DNA from: Burkholderia cepacia GG4
Lineage (GTDB): Bacteria > Pseudomonadota > Gammaproteobacteria > Burkholderiales > Burkholderiaceae
Direction of reading: 5' to 3'
Assembly: GCF_000292915.1 (NCBI RefSeq)
Contig: NC_018513.1
Coordinates: forward strand, 3,100,001-3,164,000
DNA: 64,000 nucleotides
In this document: positions 13,821 to 15,508 of the stretch, piece by piece
How the letters are laid out: the number at the start of each line of letters is the position of its first letter
Position numbering within the stretch: position 1 is the first letter of the stretch
Program-made: the position numbers and the translations under genes
Notes under the pieces: model-generated
Told to the model about the DNA's origin: nothing
The model's input: only the letters and a program-made list of their open reading frames with translations
The model's database searches: none

Positions 13821-14126
13821 ATGATGAAACAACGACTTACGCCCTTTCTCGCAGCTGCGTTGCTGGCCGCCGCGGCGCCCGCCGTCGCAGCCCGGACCGG
13901 CTGCGAGGCCAAGCTCGACGCCCTCGATGCCCGTATCGCCGACGCCCGGGGCGCCCATGCCGAGGATCGCATTGCCCGCCTACGTGCGGTACGCGAGCGC
14001 GTACGCCACTTCTGCGCGCGCGGCCACGGCCATGCGTCGGGCGCACACGCTCCCGCGCCGGCCGCACATTCGACTGACACGCTGCCAGGCGCGGCATCGC
14101 AACCGGCCGCACGACGGCCCGCGTAA
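13821..14126 (+). CDS. small periplasmic protein, DUF1090-like
   Basis: 101 aa with a Sec signal peptide: MMKQRLTPF, then a hydrophobic Ala/Leu stretch and a likely cut after PAVAA near residue 24. The mature part (GCEAKLDALDARIADAR...RLRAVRERVRHFC) has two cysteines and heptad-like helices, resembling the DUF1090 family of short periplasmic proteins. The C-terminal 30 residues are Ala/Pro/His-rich and low complexity. Function unknown. It lies alone between rplM (divergent) and the sRNA candidate (convergent). Confidence 0.65.
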   Translation: MMKQRLTPFLAAALLAAAAPAVAARTGCEAKLDALDARIADARGAHAEDRIARLRAVRERVRHFCARGHGHASGAHAPAPAAHSTDTLPGAASQPAARRPA

Positions 14127-14185
14127 CCGGCGTCGATACGTGGTGTCGGGGCGCGCAAACTGCGCGCCGATGTTTGCATGGGACG

Positions 14186-14213
14186 AAAAAAAGCCCGAAC
14201 GGCTGGTTCGGGC
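14186..14213 (-). terminator. intrinsic terminator of the sRNA candidate
   Basis: GCCCGAAC and GTTCGGGC form a perfect 8-bp stem around a 5-base loop. On the minus strand it is followed directly by TTTTTTT (14192-14186). Confidence 0.88.
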
Positions 14214-14276
14214 TTAATCCACCTTTGGAGGAGGGTGGAGGAGACATGCGGAGGTTGCCGCAGCGCGACAACCAAT
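14186..14276 (-). ncRNA. predicted small RNA with anti-Shine-Dalgarno loop
   Basis: A free-standing transcription unit with no open reading frame. It has a near-consensus promoter (14284-14312), a predicted start at A14276, and an intrinsic terminator with seven T's at 14186-14213. The predicted 91-nt RNA folds into three hairpins. Hairpin 1 is GUUGUCG/CGGCAAC (14272-14254). Hairpin 2 is UCCACC/GGUGGA (14239-14218) with CUCCUCCAAA in the loop. The third is the terminator. The loop is complementary to AGGAGG ribosome-binding sites, and a second pyrimidine run (CCUCCGC) is unpaired. From memory this matches the description of the 'Betaproteobacteria toxic small RNA' group (anti-SD loop, toxic when cloned), but I could not verify that. 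The promoter-to-terminator logic is seen directly; function is inference. Confidence 0.7.
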
Positions 14277-14283
14277 GAGGCTC

Positions 14284-14312
14284 ATTATACGAACGCGTCG
14301 CTGACTTCACAA
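14284..14312 (-). promoter_or_regulatory. near-consensus sigma70 promoter of the sRNA candidate
   Basis: On the minus strand TTGTGA (14312-14307) and a perfect TATAAT (14289-14284) are separated by exactly 17 bases. An AT-rich stretch lies upstream of the -35. It contains the direct repeat TGCGAAAT (14325-14332 and 14345-14352, 20 bases apart) and the palindrome GCGAAATTTCGC (14346-14357). Confidence 0.8.
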
Positions 14313-14602
14313 GAAAATTTGCATTGCGAAATCGATAACCATAATGCGAAATTTCGCGAACGGCGCAGGAGAAATCTCTTTTCTCTTTGAAATCAAATAA
14401 TTGAGAGAGATGGCCACGGCTGGAAACCCGCTACATCTAGAGTAAAACCCCTAAGGACGGCAGGGAAATCGGCGCTCGGCGCCCCGCCGGGCGCCGCACA
14501 CGCCGGCGCGGCGCGTCCCGTCCTGCAGCGCATCAGCCGACCGTTGCGCAGCGGGCTACAATGCCGGATCGAATCCGAATCAGGCAACGCTGGAGTGCAA
14601 GC
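14313..14602. other. non-coding stretch between the sRNA promoter and the OsmC gene
   Basis: The first part (14313-14410) is AT-rich for this genome and carries the repeats described with the sRNA promoter, plus TTTGAAATCAAA near 14381-14400. The second part (14440-14570) is GC-rich with several short inverted repeats (for example around GGCGCC copies). I see no further gene; it should contain the promoter of the OsmC gene. Confidence 0.5.
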
Positions 14603-15025
14603 ATGGAATGCAAAGTAAGCTGGATGGGTCAGGACGGCATGGCGTTTTCGGCCCAGACCGGAAGCGGGCATCTCGTCGCGATGGACGGCGCGCCGGAAGG
14701 CGGCGGCCACAACCTCGCACCGCGCCCGATGGAAATGGTGCTGGTCGGCACCGGCGGCTGCACCGCGTATGACGTCGTGCTGATCCTGAAGAAGAGCCGC
14801 CAGGAAGTCACCGGCTGCTCGGTCACGCTGAAGGCCGAACGCGCGAGCGAGGATCCGAAGGTGTTCACCAAGGTTCACTTCCACTTCACCGTCACGGGCC
14901 ACAACCTGAACCCGGCCACGGTCGAGCGCGCGATCAACCTGTCGCACGACAAGTATTGCTCCGCGTCGATCATGATCGCGAAGACGGCCGAACTCACGCA
15001 TTCGTTCGACATCGTCGCGGTCTGA
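14603..15025 (+). CDS. OsmC-family protein (YhfA-like)
   Basis: 140 aa starting at the ATG at 14603 (MECKVSWMGQDGMAFSAQTG). It has the OsmC-like core: RPMEMVLVGTGGCTAYDVVL with the first cysteine near residue 52, and YCSASIMI with the second near residue 118. The two cysteines form the thiol-peroxidase pair in Ohr/OsmC enzymes, and here both are kept. The closest subgroup by layout is YhfA, whose substrate is unknown. It stands alone, followed by the rnpB terminator in convergent orientation. Confidence 0.88.
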   Translation: MECKVSWMGQDGMAFSAQTGSGHLVAMDGAPEGGGHNLAPRPMEMVLVGTGGCTAYDVVLILKKSRQEVTGCSVTLKAERASEDPKVFTKVHFHFTVTGHNLNPATVERAINLSHDKYCSASIMIAKTAELTHSFDIVAV

Positions 15026-15083: not shown

Positions 15084-15096
15084 TCGCATTCGAATC

Positions 15097-15508
<412 letters not shown>

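Follow-up and report, generated by a model that had tools for sequence, protein, structure and literature searches.

Between two protein-coding genes of Burkholderia cepacia GG4, the window (the whole 64,000-nt stretch of contig NC_018513.1 analyzed here) contains a compact unit whose predicted RNA carries CUCCUCC in a hairpin loop. What is this RNA, and would it act on Shine–Dalgarno (SD) sequences at large, on the ribosome itself, or on a chosen set of messages? The argument draws on the following parts of the locus.

13821–14126, plus strand: 101-aa open reading frame (ORF) at the BCAL3348a position, without a Pfam match; matched by tblastn in 31 of 36 genus loci
14186–14276, minus strand: 91-nt sRNA, the NcS27 ortholog, Rfam RF02278; ends predicted
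14186–14215, minus strand: intrinsic terminator hairpin and T run, from fold, consensus scan, and covariation
14218–14239, minus strand: hairpin 2, whose loop CUCCUCCAAA (14233–14224) is the second anti-SD motif
14237–14246, minus strand: UGUCUCCUCC, comprising the single-stranded UGUCUCC tail and the three bases that open the stem; put forward as the main seed
14253–14273, minus strand: 5' hairpin of 9 pairs, outside the Rfam model
14284–14312, minus strand: sigma-70-type promoter TTGTGA-N17-TATAAT (TTGTGA at 14312–14307, TATAAT at 14289–14284)
14313–14352, minus strand: conserved upstream block, ATTTCGCATTATGG.. and ..ATTTCGCAATGCAAATTTTC, a candidate regulator site of putative function with limits set by eye
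14561–15025, plus strand: gene for an OsmC-family protein (Pfam PF02566, 65.6 bits), a conserved neighbor

As read from the sequence of the minus strand, the unit runs from its predicted start, an A at 14276, to a T run that reaches 14186, in agreement with an original prediction of about 91 bases. The TTGTGA-N17-TATAAT promoter named in that prediction was read directly and scored 10 of 12 in a consensus scan of 14100–14600, which found 2 promoter-like sites compared to 0.2 in shuffles and also detected the terminator. The unit folds at −38.5 kcal/mol in ViennaRNA (z −5.4), a stability equaled by 0 of 200 shuffles, and the predicted fold consists of three hairpins, the middle one having the CUCCUCC-containing loop CUCCUCCAAA, as had been proposed. 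The hairpin and T run of the terminator also stood, but its stem (14215–14191) has 10 pairs rather than the 8 claimed, a count that omitted the outer two A-U pairs. The first suggestion of a stand-alone sRNA is supported.

The covariance model of RF02278, the 'Betaproteobacteria toxic small RNA' family that had been named originally, matched 14246–14185 over the full model (1–64) at 72.6 bits and an E-value of 1e-12, exceeding the gathering cut-off of 50 bits. The RNA has the UGUCUCCUCC tail, the hairpin with a CU-rich loop, and a terminator hairpin that covaries among 29 chosen sequences. According to PMC4603805, B. cenocepacia J2315 has four named members of this family, ncS03, ncS05, ncS27, and ncS62, and the 92-nt ncS27 lies on the complement strand between BCAL3348a and BCAL3349 in the gene order → ← →. 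The GG4 unit likewise lies between the plus-strand 101-codon ORF and plus-strand osmC, on the strand opposite to both, with rplM and rpsI beyond; from gene order, BCAL3349 would be osmC. As in the NcS27 group, a 5' hairpin precedes the double-hairpin core and the length is about 92 nt. Because the locus order matches that of ncS27, the unit belongs to RF02278, and the locus is found throughout the genus, we call it the NcS27 ortholog, with the J2315 locus compared by its published description. The GG4 unit is an already described sRNA, so the observation is real but not new, and its role, which had been called open, was characterized for NcS27 in a 2019 study as summarized in a review (PMC10987360).

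Matches to RF02278 at E ≤ 0.001 were present in 51 of 61 genomes (44 over the cut-off), including all 37 of the genus and 14 of the 24 that came from elsewhere in the order, and were absent from all 14 control genomes. The 62-nt match was found in each of the 37 genus genomes searched, and a pattern combining the 5' hairpin and core retrieved 29 Burkholderia records, including B. cenocepacia NCTC13227, B. cepacia, B. ambifaria, and B. ubonensis. The GG4 genome has five matches, four of them above the cut-off, and holds four or five sibling RF02278 sRNAs, the NcS27 ortholog among them. The fifth match (L005:1501–1572; G000:C2:106701–106772) scores 38.5 bits, below the Rfam cut-off, has an altered loop, and is a possible diverged sibling. 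G043, a genome of another family, contains nine family matches, including two on one strand with starts ~380 bp apart (G043:C1:1646160–1646602).

We read the locus in 36 of the 37 genus genomes (the window and 35 others), leaving out G031, in which the match lies at a contig start. The sRNA had osmC on one side and rplM, encoding L13, on the other in all 36. The 101-aa ORF at 13821–14126, the start of which resembles a signal peptide by eye, had no tblastn match in five of these loci (L039, L047, L063, L065, and L066). Among five loci from other families, osmC and L13 accompany the sRNA in three (L070, L072, and L073); neither was detected beside it in L071 or L074. Beyond osmC, at 15095–15506 on the minus strand, lies the gene for RNase P RNA (RF00010, 294 bits).

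The unit is 91 nt long in 36 of 36 genus loci. CUCCUCC is invariant in all 36, and TATAAT is also present in every locus; the AAA after the loop motif occurs in only 3. With columns counted from the start point without gaps, the mean modal base frequency over the 36 loci was 0.976 for the 5' hairpin, 0.978 for the core, and 0.717 downstream, and on the upstream side was 0.844 for the promoter, 0.864 for positions −76 to −37, and 0.455 for positions −100 to −77. The ten bases of UGUCUCCUCC are identical in 36 of 36 orthologs, and bases 2–10 do not vary in any of 29 family sequences. Among the pairing segments, conservation is highest in this 5' tail, where it is at least as high as in the loop, and the original focus on the loop passed over it.

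We measured covariation in 29 chosen family sequences and in 18 of the 36 orthologs. When siblings and members of other families were included (28 distinct sequences), pairing extended to 95.0% of cells, with two-sided changes in 8 of 15 pairs, a result reached by 0 of 500 shuffles; sliding the pairing partners lowered family pairing to 49.5% or less, and 7 of 10 terminator pairs changed on both sides. Among the Burkholderia orthologs, each of the 18 distinct aligned sequences forms the stems, and the 5' hairpin, in which 100% of cells are paired, has one-sided changes only. Two-sided changes numbered 0 in all three helices of these 18 sequences, and 390 of 500 shuffles paired equally well. 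Because the orthologs have no two-sided changes, the covariation rests on the siblings and other families; within the genus, where a check had originally been proposed, the stems vary too little for covariation to be informative. The sequence of the 5' hairpin was not seen in the four other-family rows, which were compared by eye as plain sequence.

These results bear on the idea that the RNA is a leader and that a small peptide encoded by it does the work, for which Bordetella S17L, described in a preprint as overlapping a 32-codon ORF (PMC11722255), offers a precedent. In GG4, however, no complete ORF within the unit exceeds two codons on the unit's strand, as the original prediction had it: two frames are open through the terminator, and the third contains only GTG-GAT-TAA. 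Constant length and conserved stem pairing also speak against a peptide, and we give this explanation practically no weight.

As their −35 hexamer, 17 of 36 genus loci have TTGTGA and 12 have TTGTGC. Upstream of this hexamer, 18 of 40 columns between −76 and −37 are invariant in the 36 loci at a fixed distance to the start, and the two-block pattern of this region occurs once in the genome, at the unit's own promoter. This conservation suggests that the 40-bp block is a candidate binding site of a regulator. By eye, 14352–14313 contains two TTTCG(C/T)A..ATG-type blocks ~21 bp apart that are partly palindromic in some species. We considered a palindromic IclR-like operator and rejected it, as some loci, such as L051 and L054, look palindromic but the window's copy pairs poorly by eye. 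According to Table 2 of PMC5688073, NcS27 levels rise 9.7-fold in biofilm, 2.4-fold in stationary phase, 3.9-fold under starvation, and 4.3-fold in glucose medium. The conserved upstream block and the condition-dependent levels of the ortholog together argue against a purely constitutive promoter, and the description of the RNA as constitutive is not supported. The authors of the 2017 paper stated that the regulator of these sRNAs' accumulation was unknown and reported, in Fig. S3, an upstream motif that three of the four siblings have in common (PMC5688073); that motif may or may not be the 14352–14313 block, and our comparison of the siblings' promoters by eye gave nothing firm for a common motif. 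The block provides a concrete site for testing what regulates these sRNAs.

The first seven bases of UGUCUCCUCC have a predicted unpaired probability of at least 0.9 in both the full and trimmed forms, and we propose that the main seed consists of the free UGUCUCC tail at the 5' end and the three stem bases next to it. Its complement, searched as GGAGGAGACA-N0-9-ATG, occurs at 13 distinct sites in the GG4 genome (14 rows), compared to 0 for the reversed pattern; the flank controls GGAGGAACAR and GGAGGARAAC gave 0 and 4 sites, respectively. The shorter pattern GGAGGAG..ATG gave 86 rows against 28 for its reversed control, and perhaps about a third of its sites are due to chance. After removal of three overlapping duplicates and one row inside the sRNA gene, 13 of the remaining 82 sites carry ACA, compared to 6 for the runner-up triplet, an excess with a binomial probability of 5e-10 under equal triplets that is overstated because triplets are unequally common before start codons. 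Translational reasons alone may explain how common GGAGGAGACA is. GGAGGAGACA sites were present in 31 of 31 genus genomes searched, with at least 4 to 21 rows each, some of them inside sibling sRNA genes (e.g. G010:C3:1041883), and the reversed control gave at most 1 row among the matches listed. Nine such loci were read in other genomes; relatives of the 13 GG4 genes (39 to 97% identity) are encoded at six of them but not at the other three. The complement of the loop core, GGAGGAG, is part of the tail complement. A loop-specific pattern, TTTGGAGGAG-N0-9-ATG, had 1 site and was set aside; because it tests the AAA kept in 3 of 36 loci only, this result says little against the loop.

Predicted duplexes with the targets had energies of −21.3 to −31.3 kcal/mol, compared to −9.8 to −13.0 kcal/mol for the 13-nt 16S tail, in a model that ignores intramolecular structure and with a longer stretch for the sRNA (29 nt). 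CUCCUCC in the sRNA loop is the anti-SD core of 16S rRNA, and this identity is what would favor competition with 16S rRNA, in which the RNA would occupy the ribosome and shut mRNAs out. A motif that equals the 16S tail instead of complementing it makes pairing through that motif impossible, and the published effects are substrate-dependent (PMC10987360); competition of this kind, one of two mechanisms originally suggested, is highly improbable. The other, pairing with ribosome-binding sites, is the best mechanism.

Such pairing could be unselective, with the RNA at high level blocking SDs in general as a damper during growth arrest. A general translation brake of this type would fit the two anti-SD motifs of the sRNA, the naming of RF02278 for growth inhibition in E. 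coli (PMC5688073, PMC4603805), and the reported accumulation of the ortholog at growth arrest (PMC5688073, PMC10987360); the positive selection of ncS27 and ncS03 transposon insertions in both host models reported in PMC12013268 fits either reading. The conserved segment, however, extends past the SD core, with its UGU pairing with ACA, and the complement with ACA is over-represented among SD-type sites. The greater stability of the target duplexes, although predicted with a longer stretch on the sRNA side, and the substrate dependence of the published effects also argue against a brake, which we regard as unlikely compared to pairing with selected SD regions.

Pfam matches among the 13 genes behind GGAGGAGACA sites identified four MFS transporters, a lactate permease, two extracellular solute-binding proteins, and OmpW on the transport and porin side, and a class III CoA-transferase, a fatty-acid-hydroxylase-family protein, and an aldehyde dehydrogenase among the others; L106 and L117, for which a Pfam match was not found, were left unlabeled. 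In a small, post hoc contrast with all controls from contig C1, transporters or porins made up 8 of the 13 genes compared to 3 of 16 controls having another triplet (one-sided Fisher 0.023). This value was 0.008 when an ABC-ATPase fragment was not counted, 0.054 when the DUF485 protein L145 was counted as transport-linked, and 0.047 (or 0.091) for C1 targets only. As controls, 23 non-ACA loci (22 distinct sites) yielded 16 distinct ORFs with a minimum length of 80 aa, one or two of these ORFs being probably internal starts.

We consider it very probable that the NcS27 ortholog is made from its own promoter, acts in a trimmed two-hairpin form, and blocks GGAGGAGACA-type SDs of carbon-source genes. 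In GG4, transcription would start from this promoter, probably controlled by a regulator through the conserved upstream block, and would stop at the intrinsic terminator. Removal of the 5' hairpin would then probably leave a form of ~61 nt with two hairpins. The free 5' tail of this form, UGUCUCC(UCC), aided by the CUCCUCC loop, would pair with GGAGGAGACA SD regions and keep ribosomes from loading onto particular mRNAs, many of which encode carbon-source transporters, porins, and catabolic enzymes. When strongly overexpressed, the RNA would also reach many further SDs, and the growth inhibition that gave the family its 'toxic' name may stem from this. Trimming, a need for Hfq, and repression of the named targets in GG4 are proposed by analogy with Bordetella S17, for which 5'-end pairing, RNase E trimming, and Hfq binding have been reported. 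We hold more tentatively, and would sooner doubt than assert, that a dedicated regulator at the 40-bp site and a genus-wide GGAGGAGACA leader code jointly shut off carbon-uptake and catabolic genes. Our additions are modest, consisting of the ortholog's place in GG4, the emphasis on the 5' tail, the target list, and the conserved promoter block, and they narrow follow-up to one conserved upstream block, 13 genes as candidate targets, and the 5' tail in combination with the loop.

Among known systems, NcS27 of J2315 is closest, being alike in length (92 nt compared to 91 nt in GG4), strand, gene order, and RF02278 membership, with a reported folding energy of −37.8 by mfold and z of −5.1 (PMC5688073) compared to −38.5 by ViennaRNA and −5.4 for GG4. 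The corresponding locus is also present in G002 (L036), with some bases differing from the GG4 window. For NcS27, PMC5688073 reports that overexpression slows growth, whereas antisense to the CU-rich 5' region has the opposite effect, and that dRNA-seq indicates a processing site leaving a short two-hairpin form. The 2019 study, as described in a 2024 review, found that growth was attenuated on phenylalanine, tyrosine, glycerol, and galactose and not on other substrates, and that expression of predicted targets changed (PMC10987360). The siblings ncS03, ncS05, and ncS62 share the UGUCUCCUCC tail, two hairpins, and terminator but are shorter (57–67 nt as published in PMC5688073), and by eye start approximately at the tail without the 5' hairpin and have a UGUCUCC-type loop and other promoters.

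Bordetella pertussis S17, which its authors relate to RF02278, resembles the GG4 RNA in its conserved 5' region, the trimming of a long form to a short one, and its ribosome-binding-site targets, many of them transporters, according to the preprint PMC11722255. That source describes the 27-nt 5' region of S17 as fully conserved across Betaproteobacteria species, supports direct 5'-end pairing with a leader by compensatory mutations, and reports RNase E trimming and Hfq binding. S17 differs in lying between a glycosyltransferase gene and coq7, in having a 190-nt precursor, in being higher in the Bvg+ mode, and, unlike the 'toxic' family label, in being non-toxic in E. coli BL21 (PMC11722255). 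The NmsR sRNAs of Neisseria meningitidis, likened here by description, are also siblings that present two CU-rich unpaired stretches to ribosome-binding sites, but they are arranged in tandem and have TCA-cycle targets (PMC5688073).
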